From an uncultured bacterium (GTDB lineage: Bacteria; Krumholzibacteriota; Krumholzibacteriia; LZORAL124-64-63): DNA of 64,000 nt. The position numbers were made by a program, and so were the translations under genes. Below, one piece after another: positions 6,646-55,488 of the stretch. The stretch spans positions 1 to 64,000 of the forward strand of contig CALEMW010000040.1 of assembly GCA_937910695.1 (NCBI GenBank), in the 5' to 3' direction. Below the pieces are notes generated by a model that searched no databases, had not been told where the DNA came from, and saw only the letters and a list, made by a program, of their open reading frames with translations. How positions within the stretch are numbered: position 1 is the stretch's first letter; the number at the start of each line of letters is the position of its first letter.

Positions 6646-8022
6646 ATGTCCTCACGACTGCGCATCTCCGCCGTAGCGATCGCCCTGATCGTCGCAGCCT
6701 CTTTGGCCCAAGCCACCGTCCTGCACGTTTCGCCCGACGGCACCGGGGATTATCCGACCATCCAGGCAGCCCTCGACGCAGCAGTGAGCTGGGACGAGAT
6801 CGAGCTCGCCGACGGCGTGTACACCGGCGACGGGAACCGCGACATCATCCACCCGGCCCTCTACCTGACGATCCGTTCCCAGAGCGGCGACCCCACCGCC
6901 TGCGTCATCGACATCGAGGCGGGACCGGGCAACGCCCACTTCGGGCTGAAGTATGGAGACGGCGGCTGAAGCCGCGGCACCGCCCCGGGTCTGCGGGGCG
7001 ACAAGGTCATCAACGGGGTGCTTGAGGGCGTCACCATCACCAACGGTTATCACACCACCGGACCCGCGGTGGTAACCTACGAGGGCGCCACCCTCGACGT
7101 CGCCCACTGCGTATTCACGAACAACACCGCAACCACCCACGGCGGCGCCGTGGCCAACTTCGCCGGCTTCGTGACCTACACCGACTGTGTGTTCAACGGC
7201 AACGCCGCGTTGCAGGGCGGCGCTGCCGCCGACCCTTCGTGCGGCGCCATGGACTTCACCAGCTGTGTGTTCGCCGACAATACGGCGGCCATCGAGGGCG
7301 GGGCCATCTTCATCAACGACATCTCCCAAAGCACCTGGACCGACTGCACCATCGTCGGCAACGCTTCCCCGGTGGGGTCGGGAGCCTTCATCGAAGCGTC
7401 GATCGACGGCCCGATCATGATCTGGAACACGATCATCGCCGACAACACCGGTGGCGCCGCGGTGGTTTGGGACGGCCTGGGTGTCTTGTTCTTGAACTGC
7501 AGCGATCTGTTCGGAAACGAAGGCGGCGACTGGGTCGGCGGCATCGCCGTCCAGGGGGGCATCAACAACAACTTCTCGGCTGATCCGGTCTTCTGCGACG
7601 GCGTGCCGGGCGCGGATCCCTACGGCTTGGATGTGTCCTCGCCCTGCAGCTCCGCGCTGAGTACCTGCGGCGGCGTCGGCGCTCGCGGCGTGGTGTGCGA
7701 CGGCATGGTCGGCAACGAGGACGAGCCGACGCCAGAAGCCGTACCTCGGTTGACCCTGCATCCATGTCGTCCCAACCCGTTCAATCCAGCGACGGTGATC
7801 TCGTTCGAGCTGGAAGAGCCGGGAACCGTCACGCTGCAGATCGTCGATGTCCGCGGCCGCCACATCGACGACCTCATGCACCAGACGATGCAGGCCGGAA
7901 CCCACACGACGACCTGGCTCGGCCGCGACGCCGCAGGCGAGCTCGTCCCTGCCGGCATCTATTTCGCCAAGCTGGTGGTCGGGGACATCGTCTTGTCCCA
8001 ACGCATGACCCTCCTCAAATAG
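6646..8022 (+). pseudogene. Secreted beta-helix repeat protein with FlgD-like C-terminus, split by in-frame TGA
   Basis: The same reading frame runs from ATG 6646 (signal peptide ending near SLAQA) to TAA at 8020-8022, broken once by TGA at 6967-6969. Before it is a pectate-lyase-like start (HVSPDGTGDYPTIQAALDAA). After it come right-handed beta-helix turns (GVTITNGY, CVFTNNTA, CVFNGNAAL, CVFADNTAA). The last 90 or so residues form a FlgD/T9SS-type-A-like sorting domain with PNPFNPATVISFEL and GIYFAKLVVGD. Both parts keep good codon use, so the stop is a recent nonsense change, a sequence error, or a recoded codon (see findings). AGGGAG lies nine bases before the start. Confidence 0.75.
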
Positions 8023-52282: not shown

Positions 52283-52879
52283 ATGAAGATGATCCTATGT
52301 GTCGTGTTGATATGTCTTCTGGCTGTTTCCTCCTCGGCTCAGATCCATCCCGACCCAGATGGTCTCGGCCTGTATTTCGACCCGGGCGGAACGGCCTACG
52401 AAACCCAGACCAGTGTTCCTTTCCAGCAGGTGACTGCCTACCTGCTTGCTACGAACATCACCGATCCGATGGGCATTTCGGGCTGGGAGTGCGCCGTGAT
52501 CACCACTGGCAGCGTGGCTGCTCCGTCCTGGACCGTCTCAGGAGGGCTGAATGTCACCGATGGCTCGGCCGGGTTGTTCCAGGTAGGTATTGGGCTGTTC
52601 GAATTGGCGCTCCCCTCGGCGCCGACGGTTCTGCTGGCAACCTGGACGGGATTCATCATGGCGCCGTTCGACATTGTTGAGTTCCTGGTGACGCCGTTCC
52701 CCGGTTCGGTCTCCTTTCCCGACAGCGCCGGCTACGCTTCGGGCAGCGACGCGGGCCATCTGATCCCCTTCGACATCAACGGCGGCTGTTTCGGGTCGGG
52801 GTGGACGATCATCAATATGTGGTGTCCGTTGGGGGCGGAGCAGCAGTCCTGGAGCGAGATCAAGACCATTTATCGCTAG
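52283..52879 (+). CDS. Secreted protein of unknown function with C-terminal SWSEIK motif
   Basis: 198 residues: signal peptide MKMILCVVLICLLAVSSSAQ then a beta-rich domain (LGLYFDPGGTAYETQ, WECAVITTG, DSAGYASGSDAGHLIPFDIN) that recalls cohesin-like or anchor domains of FCB secreted proteins. The C-terminus ends in QQSWSEIKTIYR. The same type of ending occurs in the unrelated protein at 54799-55488. AAGGAG precedes ATG 52283; TATGAT at 52233-52238 could be its -10 box. Confidence 0.7.
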   Translation: MKMILCVVLICLLAVSSSAQIHPDPDGLGLYFDPGGTAYETQTSVPFQQVTAYLLATNITDPMGISGWECAVITTGSVAAPSWTVSGGLNVTDGSAGLFQVGIGLFELALPSAPTVLLATWTGFIMAPFDIVEFLVTPFPGSVSFPDSAGYASGSDAGHLIPFDINGGCFGSGWTIINMWCPLGAEQQSWSEIKTIYR

Positions 52880-52949
52880 CTCGGGCAGTGCGAACAGCGT
52901 CCTGTGCCTTACTCTCGAGTTTTTGCCTCCTTGGAGGAAGGGAGGATCC

Positions 52950-53321
52950 ATGCTCCATGAGCCCCTCAGGAAGTCGCGTAACCGCCGTTCTAACAAACTC
53001 CTGGTGATGACCTCCATTTATGGATTGTTGTATGTCCTTTTCCTCGTCAGCGGGTCTTACGGTTCGGGCCATTCCGAGCCTATTGTTGTCAAACTCCTGT
53101 TTCTTCTGTTCCTCATTGGATATGCCACGGTCTGGCTGGACGAGCGCATCGGGGGAGTGATCTTCGTCCTGTGGTGGGCCGGGATGTGGTACCTCAGCCT
53201 GTTTGTATCGCTGGAGGATACCGGGAACGCAGTTGTCATGGGAGTCCCGCTTTTTGTCCTCGGAATCTTGTTCATCGTTTCATGGTACCGAAGGCGCGGG
53301 GCCGGACAGCCTACAGGGTAA
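52950..53321 (+). CDS. Small integral membrane protein, unknown function
   Basis: 123 residues with about four hydrophobic helices (about 18-38, 45-62, 67-82, 92-112) and basic ends. No catalytic motif. ATG 52950 has GGAGG six bases upstream, better than the in-frame ATG at 52923. Such four-helix DUF proteins are common and unassigned. Confidence 0.65.
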   Translation: MLHEPLRKSRNRRSNKLLVMTSIYGLLYVLFLVSGSYGSGHSEPIVVKLLFLLFLIGYATVWLDERIGGVIFVLWWAGMWYLSLFVSLEDTGNAVVMGVPLFVLGILFIVSWYRRRGAGQPTG

Positions 53322-53380
53322 TTGTTCAGCCAACCGCCTTTGCAGTTGAAGCCAATGATATCCCCGATTTGAGACGGAAC

Positions 53381-53406
53381 GAGGCCCCTCATCCCTGAGG
53401 GGCCTC
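53381..53406. terminator. Hairpin between convergent genes
   Basis: GAGGCCCCTC, six-base loop, GAGGGGCCTC: a perfect 10-bp stem between the membrane protein and the TPR gene, which face each other. No T-run on either side, so a weak or factor-assisted terminator. Confidence 0.5.
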
Positions 53407-53429
53407 GCTCATGTGAGGGGCTGCAAGTT

Positions 53430-54581
53430 CTACAACCCGCCATCCCCCAACGCCACCGCCGTCGGTTCCTCGTCGGCCACGACCGCGGAGTCGGCATCGG
53501 CGCTCATCGTGGAATCGGGCGCGTCATCCACGACACCATTGATGCCGGCCGACTCCGCGGCGTAGCGCGGCAGGGCCTCGAAGGAGGCGGCCAGGGCAGC
53601 CAGGTCCAGGGTCTCGCCGGCGGTTCCGCCGTCGGCCAGGAAGGCCTCGAGGCGGGCCAGGCTCACGTCGGCCTTGGCGTGGCCGGCGTCGGCGGCGACC
53701 TCGTAGGCCAGGGCGGCCTGTTCGGCGTGGCCGGTGCGTTCGAGGGCCATGCCTAGGTTGTTGAGGATCACGGCCGTTTCAGGGGCGAGTTCGGCGGCGC
53801 GGGCCAAAGGGGCCAGGGCGGCCTCGGGCGCATCCATCTCGAGGTGGATCAGGCCCAGGTTGTTCAGCGACCAGGGGTCGTCCGAGCGGCGGGCGAGGGC
53901 CTCGTGGTAGGCGTCCAGGGCTTCGTCGCTGCGGCCCAGGGTATGGAGGACGCGGCCGAGAACGCGGTACCCGTCGGTATATTCGGGATCGATGGAAAGG
54001 GCGTCTTCAACCGGTGCGAGGGCCTCGTCGGCGCGGGCGAGCTCGAGGCGCACGCGGGCCATGTTGACCAGGCTCTTGACGTGGTCGGGCTTCAGGTCGA
54101 TGGCGACGGCCAGGGCGGTCTCGGCCTCGACGACGGCACCGGACTTCCACAGGGCCAGTCCGAGCATGTAGTGGCCCCAGGCGTTGGCGGGACGCTGCTC
54201 GGTGTAGAGCGTGAAGAGGTCCGCGGCGGAGTCGTAGTCGCGGTCGTAGTAGGCCGCCTCGCCGTCCTGGTAGATCACCGCGGGGGTGGCGGTGGCGTAA
54301 CGGGCGAGGGGGTCGGCGGCGACGGGCTGTTCATCGGCGACGAAGGTCTCGGGGGTGGGCGCGGCGACGGTCTCGGCCGACGCGGCCTCCTGCCGGGCCT
54401 CGATCACCGCGGCGGCGAGTGCGGCATTGTCAGGACGCTCGACGGCGGTCACGGCTACGGGCTTGTCGTTGCCCATCTTCACGCCGATGGTCACTACGAT
54501 CGCCAGCATCAGGACGAACAGGATGCCGGCTTCGGCGAAGCGCAGGGCCCGGGGGGAACGGGTGGTCTTTTCGGTGGTCAT
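53430..54581 (-). CDS. TPR-repeat protein, membrane-anchored
   Basis: 383 residues. A single membrane helix at about 18-35 (GILFVLMLAIVVTIGVKMG), an Ala/Glu-rich linker, then about six tetratricopeptide repeats (about 105-330; NAWGHYMLGLALWKSGAVVE, VKSLVNMARVRLELARADEA, PWSLNNLGLIHLEMDAPEA). TPRs mediate protein contacts; partners are unknown. The tail is acidic and Ala-rich. ATG 54581 follows AAGGAAA. Monocistronic. Confidence 0.82.
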   Translation of the reverse strand: MTTEKTTRSPRALRFAEAGILFVLMLAIVVTIGVKMGNDKPVAVTAVERPDNAALAAAVIEARQEAASAETVAAPTPETFVADEQPVAADPLARYATATPAVIYQDGEAAYYDRDYDSAADLFTLYTEQRPANAWGHYMLGLALWKSGAVVEAETALAVAIDLKPDHVKSLVNMARVRLELARADEALAPVEDALSIDPEYTDGYRVLGRVLHTLGRSDEALDAYHEALARRSDDPWSLNNLGLIHLEMDAPEAALAPLARAAELAPETAVILNNLGMALERTGHAEQAALAYEVAADAGHAKADVSLARLEAFLADGGTAGETLDLAALAASFEALPRYAAESAGINGVVDDAPDSTMSADADSAVVADEEPTAVALGDGGL

Positions 54582-54726
54582 GGCGTTTCCTTCCGCTGGG
54601 GTCGGGGCAATGTGATGCTCCGCTCAGCGCAAGGAGGGGACCAGAAAACAGTCCCACCAGAGAACTCTCTAATATTATGAAGGGTAATACGTTATGTCAT
54701 CGCAAGGTGGAATGGAGCCAGAGGGA

Positions 54727-54781
54727 AGAAAAAAATCGTGTCCACCGGGACACAATGAATTGTGTCGGGATGGACACGATT
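54727..54781 (-). terminator. Rho-independent terminator with a nested double stem
   Basis: Read on the minus strand: AATCGTGTCCA with TGGACACGATT outside, and GACACAAT with ATTGTGTC inside, followed by a seven-T run (A-run at 54729-54735). It ends transcription of the secreted-protein gene whose stop is 18 bases away. Confidence 0.85.
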
Positions 54782-54798
54782 ACCCGAACAGGCCGCGC

Positions 54799-55488
54799 CT
54801 ATCTCCAGCGCGATTTGACCTCGCCCCAGCTTGCCGATTCGTTGCCGACGGTCCCGCAATCGGTCTCAAGCGCCCAGCTCTCGACGGTCACGTACGGCCC
54901 TTCGAAGTTGCAGTCGATCTGTCCGTAGAGCTCCACGACGGCGCCTGTCCCGACCAGCTCGTCGAGGCCGGTGACGTCGCCGCTCAAGAAGGAGACCCAC
55001 TCCCAGCAAAGGCCTGGGCATGTGTCTATGCCCAGGGTCCAGCCCAGGTCGGTAATCGTACCACGGGCCAGAGGCGTGTTGGGTCTGAGGGCATAGCCGA
55101 ACGAGTAGTAACCGGGTGGGAAGAGGGGCAGGCTCAGGTAGTGGCGAGCCCCGGCTTCATCGACGGCTTTGACGCGGTATTTTTGCAGAAGATCGGGACG
55201 CGACGGTATGTTGAACAGGGTGAATTGGGCCGGCCCGCTGGGGAAGGGGATCACAGAGGTTACCTCGGCGGTCTCGGCGCATTCACCGTACACGGACCTC
55301 TCCACGATCCAGCCCACCCAATCGGCCGGCAGCTCGGTGATGATGTCCATGTCAATGGTCACAAGGACCTGCTCGCCGGTATACACGGCGGTCACGTCGA
55401 GGGAGTTGACGTCCTGGGCCGCGGCGTTCGGCGCGCTCGAGAGGATCAGACCTATCAGGAGAAGAAACACGAGCGATATCGTTCTCAT
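54799..55488 (-). CDS. Secreted protein of unknown function with C-terminal SWGEVK motif
   Basis: 229 residues: signal peptide (ISLVFLLLIGLILSSAPNAAAQ) then a beta-sandwich-like domain with VTAVYTGEQVLVTIDMDI and WIVERSVYGEC, followed by a cysteine-containing region (DTCPGLCWEW, QIDCNFEGPY). It ends NESASWGEVKSRWR, close to the ending of the protein at 52283-52879 though the rest is not similar. GGAGG lies upstream of ATG 55488. Function unknown. Confidence 0.7.
   Translation of the reverse strand: MRTISLVFLLLIGLILSSAPNAAAQDVNSLDVTAVYTGEQVLVTIDMDIITELPADWVGWIVERSVYGECAETAEVTSVIPFPSGPAQFTLFNIPSRPDLLQKYRVKAVDEAGARHYLSLPLFPPGYYSFGYALRPNTPLARGTITDLGWTLGIDTCPGLCWEWVSFLSGDVTGLDELVGTGAVVELYGQIDCNFEGPYVTVESWALETDCGTVGNESASWGEVKSRWR

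Follow-up and report, generated by a model that had tools for sequence, protein, structure and literature searches.

The type A sorting signal of the type IX secretion system (T9SS; PF18962/TIGR04183) is a C-terminal domain (CTD) of ~70-100 residues with an immunoglobulin (Ig)-like fold and motifs B, D (GxY) and E. Secretion requires its last 13 residues, notably the lysines of motif E, and green fluorescent protein is secreted with no more than the last 22 residues of Hbp35 attached (PMC10202324). The shortest known CTDs, from Prevotella intermedia, measure 43-55 residues and retain motifs B, D and E (PMC11969387). Different CTDs are read by different shuttles, divided between PorV and PorP/SprF-like proteins (PMC12618676), and the choice of cargo is named as an open question (PMC10202324). 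The T9SS or its CTDs have been called restricted to Bacteroidota (PMC10202324, PMC7906972). Here, we describe a shorter C-terminal ending, the W-tail, found in a window of 64,000 nucleotides, the whole stretch of DNA that was analysed, from an uncultured bacterium of the phylum Krumholzibacteriota (contig CALEMW010000040.1). The W-tail is very probably a C-terminal sorting or targeting signal. Two proteins of the window carry it.

52283-52879, + strand: W-tail protein 1, 198 residues, cohesin-like fold, predicted to be secreted, ending AEQQSWSEIKTIYR.
52283-52339, + strand: Sec signal peptide of protein 1 (MKMILCVVLICLLAVSSSA, then Q), read from the sequence and with a heuristic.
52829-52879, + strand: C-terminal tail of protein 1, LGAEQQSWSEIKTIYR plus stop codon, core WSEIKTIYR at 52850-52876.
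54799-55488, - strand: W-tail protein 2, 229 residues from the ATG, predicted to be secreted, ending GNESASWGEVKSRWR.
55417-55488, - strand: Sec signal peptide of protein 2 (MRTISLVFLLLIGLILSSAPNAAA, then Q), read from the sequence and with a heuristic.
54799-54849, - strand: C-terminal tail of protein 2, VGNESASWGEVKSRWR plus stop codon, core WGEVKSRWR at 54802-54828.

An upstream TTG start would extend protein 2 to 235 residues. The original prediction, made from the window alone, described two secreted proteins with unrelated bodies and a common ending. Both are indeed of the secreted type, with signal peptides that show an A/Q cleavage site and no lipobox. BLASTP aligns them over their last 16 residues only (7/16 identical, E 0.01); the bodies are unmatched and there is no full-length homology. 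The two neighbours share this ending because the tag is common to dozens of unrelated exported proteins in the genome and its relatives.

With the composition of the window, the probability that one C-terminus fits W..[ILVM]K...R is ~4e-6. Searched with a strict DNA pattern of this C-terminus, the genome of 4.14 Mb yields 11 matches, and none with the reversed-pattern control. The looser pattern W-x-x-[ILVM]-K-x-x-x-R-end gives 42 reading frames against 2, so that the motif is not rare. All 80 of the Krumholzibacteriota genomes match, up to 50 times each: ~8 to 50 matches per genome in the same family and the next one (controls 0-3), and 1-17 in the other families. A second phylum, labelled Eisenbacteria and reached via locus L116, has matches in 20/20 genomes, with 23-83 in each (controls 0-2). 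These counts were obtained with DNA patterns in which W, K and R are fixed. They are underestimates, because in 21 aligned orthologues of protein 1 (22-45% identity to the window protein) the tail is retained with an invariant K(-5), but W(-9) is replaced by F or L in 7 and the terminal R is lost in 3. The model used to find this family contained the tail, a mild bias. Within 259,000 translated residues, the motif stands at a terminus 32 times and is internal twice, apparently in one gene present in two loci. In an Eisenbacteria-labelled genome, the internal copy, SWGSIKASYR, is part of a long frame whose stop follows 320 residues later (L139:12470-13933; also L116:1138-2601).

The tail is ~15 residues long. 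Its consensus is [ST]-W-[SG]-x-[ILVM]-K-x-[LM]-[YFW]-R-stop, mostly preceded by V-x-N-E-x or P-V-E. The logo reads V16-[AGP]-N-E-D-x-[ST]-W-[SG]-E-[IVLM]-K-[ST]-L-[YF]-R in the genome of the window and P-V-E-x-x-[ST]-W-G-x-I-K-A-L-Y-R in the second phylum. The W-x-E-aliphatic-K motif first proposed is thus real as a C-terminal ending, but the fixed E had to be dropped, this position being variable. Since W, K and R were set by the search, the independent evidence lies in the other positions. In the genome of the window these are V at -16 (25/32), E at -13, S/T at -10, S/G at -8 and L at -3, and in the second phylum P-V-E is kept in 18-19 of 21 sequences.

The bodies that carry the tail are diverse. 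An alignment of 73 tailed proteins gives a majority consensus that is nearly empty outside the tail, and 75 tailed bodies fall into 50 BLAST clusters (26 for the 32 bodies of the genome of the window). Beta-helix, Cleaved_Adhesin/MAM, lamin-tail, Calx-beta, CARDB, nuclease, fn3 and cohesin-like folds are represented. A simple heuristic detects a Sec signal peptide in 71/79 tailed proteins as compared to 48/134 (36%) other open reading frames (ORFs), a background raised by the leniency of the heuristic and by crude ORF calling. The motif thus sits mainly on proteins of the exported type rather than on cytoplasmic ones. No lipobox cysteine is found at the signal peptide (0/75), and a C-terminal membrane helix is borderline in 1/75 (mean hydropathy 1.6 over 19 residues within the last 60). 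In AlphaFold2 models of the fn3 family and of protein 1, a confident body is followed by a low-confidence tail that contains a short helix.

The tail is apparently undescribed. Neither a model of it nor PF18962/TIGR04183 occurs among the families matched by the tailed proteins (13 Pfam families for 73 proteins; 25 NCBIfam families shown), and our literature search found no paper that deals with the motif, or with the C-terminal signals of these phyla. Membership of the tail in the type A CTD family was considered and rejected, the defining domain having been tested and found absent.

Among the NCBIfam names attached to tailed bodies are choice-of-anchor J and F, together with hydrolases named as dependent on rhombosortase, myxosortase or the T9SS; such bodies bear other sorting signals elsewhere. 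The endings of every choice-of-anchor J (choice_anch_J) protein were therefore read in 20 genomes, the majority of which are tail-rich. Eighteen proteins, of at least 450 residues, end with a FlgD-like T9SS domain, 14 smaller ones end with the W-tail, three are contig-cut and one has neither. A choice-of-anchor J protein of 1058 residues, L287 (G035:C85:7843-8358), lacks both the T9SS domain and the W-tail. The protein 1 family behaves in the same way: 26 members end with the tail or its W-to-F/L form and 8 with a T9SS domain, while in 2 more the sequence breaks off within such a domain or where it ends. Here the CTDs were recognised by pattern. This alternation of tail and CTD on the same body families is the decisive result. 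Because the same bodies end in one or the other, the tail behaves like an alternative sorting signal. Together with the common motif and the enrichment in signal peptides, the alternation supports the sorting role that had been predicted from the two sequences.

The window itself holds both kinds of ending, two tails and one T9SS domain.

7018-8022, + strand: secreted beta-helix protein with a T9SS type A (FlgD-like) domain, shown for contrast; domain residues 252-330, ~7771-8007.

The ending of this protein, already noted as FlgD-like, is a T9SS type A sorting domain (24.9 bits against TIGR04183, cut-off 23), which takes a FlgD-like form in these phyla. Its linker, MVGNEDEPTP, resembles the V[GA]NED lead-in of the W-tail. 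More generally, V-G-x-[DE]-[DE] is frequent before FlgD-like T9SS domains and similar to the V-[GA]-N-E-D that precedes the W-tail. Judging from these sequences, the common lead-in could be a shared processing site.

How does the tail compare with known signals? Like the type A CTD, it is a C-terminal signal on Sec-exported cargo, it occurs on body families that also carry the CTD in these genomes, and it ends with a basic residue after hydrophobic residues and a lysine. K(-5) is present in 21/21 protein 1 orthologues and the terminal R in 18/21; these residues were lined up with motif E by eye only. In contrast, the tail is predicted to be unfolded and is built on a W/F-x-x-aliphatic-K core; the last 20 residues of tailed proteins show neither a conserved GxY nor a conserved glycine, except G/S at -8. 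The short CTDs of P. intermedia resemble it in that a reduced C-terminal signal can serve the T9SS (PMC11969387), but they form three strands, whereas the tail lacks motifs B and D. Type B and C CTDs are also alternative T9SS signals, type B using specialised PorP/SprF shuttles (PMC12618676). These domains, however, reach ~100 residues or more with several motifs, and the tail shows no similarity to them. Finally, LPXTG, PEP-CTERM, GlyGly-CTERM and MYXO-CTERM are short C-terminal signals borne by many unrelated exported proteins per genome, like the tail, but their motif is followed by a membrane helix that the tail does not have.

The genome of the window encodes homologues of SprA (TIGR04189), of the PorV family (NF033709) and of the PorU sortase (NF033707), all above curated cut-offs. 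The PorU gene adjoins a PorV gene on contig C219.

G000:C22:32434-36870 and G000:C219:50938-55406: T9SS homologue regions of the genome of the window (G000), with SprA, PorV-like and PorU above curated cut-offs.

SprA and the PorV family exceed the cut-off in nearly all tail-bearing lineages tested, and PorU does so in most of them, Fermentibacteria falling below. Genomes of Aminicenantes, Acidobacteria, Myxococcota and Phycisphaerae have none of these three at the cut-off and no convincing tails. PorV-like genes are multiplied, with 12 copies in the genome of the window, 16 in G088 and up to 33 in a Calditrichia genome. These barrels far outnumber the known types of T9SS signals. SprA, PorV-like and PorU homologues above curated cut-offs are also seen in many phyla outside Bacteroidota.

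We propose that the tail would act as a portable sorting signal on small proteins that Sec exports to the periplasm, and would serve there in place of the ~75-residue Ig/FlgD-like CTD of larger proteins in the same cells. The T9SS, that is the SprA translocon together with one PorV-like shuttle barrel out of the many present, would read the tail in the periplasm and then move the tailed protein across the outer membrane. PorU may cleave and attach the protein in the acidic linker just ahead of the tail. Because short CTDs have precedents and several shuttles exist, a shorter signal using another PorV-like shuttle is plausible by analogy. For the T9SS as the route of the tailed proteins, we lean only slightly towards yes. 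The complete proposal, a portable C-terminal sorting signal that replaces the CTD and is read by the T9SS, is likewise a reading that we favour by a little.

Several observations weigh against this proposal. The alternation is confounded with protein size: in the loci examined, the median length is 254 residues for W-tail proteins and 830 for FlgD-domain proteins (Mann-Whitney p ~1e-14). Motif B and the GxY of motif D, kept even in the shortest CTDs, are missing from the tail. SprA-positive genomes of Zixibacteria, WOR-3 and Cloacimonadota have few or no tails. As phyla with a rare or single-copy tail thus have T9SS genes too, the T9SS does not predict the tail. Conversely, genome G089, which encodes an fn3 protein with a tail, has PorU and PorV but no SprA match. 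Finally, no PorV-like paralogue lies in an operon with tail genes in the 20 loci read.

The tail may instead be a sorting signal read by a dedicated and still unknown machine (translocon, peptidase-transferase or surface receptor), separate from the T9SS and coexisting with it. The poor correlation between tail abundance and T9SS presence would then be expected, as would the absence of a recognisable CTD motif. Moreover, signals that serve many cargos in a restricted lineage are usually paired with one enzyme, as illustrated by GlyGly-CTERM and rhombosortase (PMC3237569). This alternative is unlikely, although it has to be taken seriously. On shared bodies, it is specifically the T9SS CTD that takes the place of the tail, and surveyed genomes without SprA or PorU above the cut-off lack convincing tails, except for Fermentibacteria, where only PorU is below. 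A co-occurring peptidase or translocon, for which the original prediction suggested to look, was not found linked to the ending: in the 12 loci around the single-copy fn3 gene with a tail the neighbours differ, apart from the metalloprotease and PorD-like genes described below, and no candidate gene stands beside tail genes in these or in the 20 loci mentioned above.

A retention or docking peptide, in which a short amphipathic helix would hold small exported proteins on lipid or on a partner in the outer membrane or periplasm, is quite improbable. The tail does have an S/T N-cap, W, I and Y spaced i, i+3, i+7, and the short helix of both AlphaFold2 models. Its alpha hydrophobic moment averages 0.563 as compared to 0.397 (standard deviation 0.020) for shuffled tails. 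However, the beta moment is nearly as strong (0.535 versus 0.387), so that this measure does not decide between helix and strand, and the confidence of the models is low in the tail. In addition, the invariant lysine and the fixed distance to the C-terminus fit recognition by a protein better than lipid binding, and the tail replaces a secretion CTD on bodies of a known extracellular type.

Shared ancestry, with the tailed proteins forming one divergent family that kept its last residues or with the tail as a part of the fold, accounts for the paralogy of some bodies (75 giving 50 clusters) but is highly unlikely, given the diverse folds, the disorder of the tail in both models, the replacement of the tail by a CTD on the same bodies and the lack of a common domain immediately before the tail across classes. 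A degradation or quality-control tag, to which a free C-terminal motif on exported proteins could point, is just as hard to believe, as the tail is conserved phylum-wide on secreted enzymes and adhesin-type proteins and its end is charged, whereas tail-specific proteases favour nonpolar termini.

In other phyla, a genome has 0-1 real matches of the R-ending form. These singles correspond to one orthologous secreted fn3-like protein of ~135 residues, found in KSB1, Ignavibacteria, Kapabacteria, a Chloroherpeton-labelled genome and two further bacteria. The bodies of these orthologues are ~30% identical, and W, G, K, M, F and R of the tail are invariant. A profile search adds a Bacteroidetes-labelled genome (WGMIKEMFK) and another bacterium (WGSLKAMFK), as well as Calditrichia with the endings WGSIKALFQ, WGGIKALFK and WGTLKAVFR. 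WGxIKAEFK-type endings occur in Fermentibacteria, after an fn3-like domain, and in one more Eisenbacteria-labelled genome. Two other Fermentibacteria genomes (G094, G097) have a lineage-specific form, WGxIKTLF-stop, that ends with F and without the basic residue. The spread over these lineages argues that the tail is old in the Fibrobacteres-Chlorobi-Bacteroidetes (FCB) superphylum, with lineage-specific forms. The fn3-like tailed protein (L124-L130, L151-L155) is single-copy across KSB1, Ignavibacteria, Kapabacteria, Calditrichia and relatives. In one genome, a PorD-like (T9SS) gene lies directly upstream of it, and in Kapabacteria-type genomes it adjoins the gene of an MXAN_6640-family metalloprotease with a T9SS-like CTD.

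It is reasonably likely that the tail represents a new class, an unfolded outer-membrane secretion or surface-sorting signal of ~15 residues used by small proteins of several FCB phyla in parallel to the T9SS domain, with either a dedicated PorV-like shuttle or a novel machine as its reader. If the proposal of a sorting signal read by the T9SS holds, a likely destination could be named, throughout uncultured phyla, for the 20-80 exported proteins of each genome that are still uncharacterised. Sorting of the T9SS type, with its signals, would extend beyond Bacteroidota, with the smallest candidate signal yet for this system, and a portable tag of 15 residues would provide a ready reporter for T9SS cargo choice.

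Protein 2 has one relative in the genome (L014), which is tailed too. The protein 1 family has 8 profile matches within the genome and is present in 36/78 genomes of the phylum. The AlphaFold2 model of protein 1, built with 20 relatives, has a mean predicted local distance difference test score of 83.7. Its best fold matches in the PDB are type II cohesins (E 2.5e-4), which fill nearly the whole top of the list, with a weak resemblance by TM-score (0.50-0.56). In G045, G046 and G004, a secreted protein of ~230 residues with dockerin-like calcium-loop repeats is encoded directly upstream of the cohesin-like tail gene; Pfam does not support a dockerin identity for the proteins beside these genes. 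Protein 1 also has tandem paralogues.

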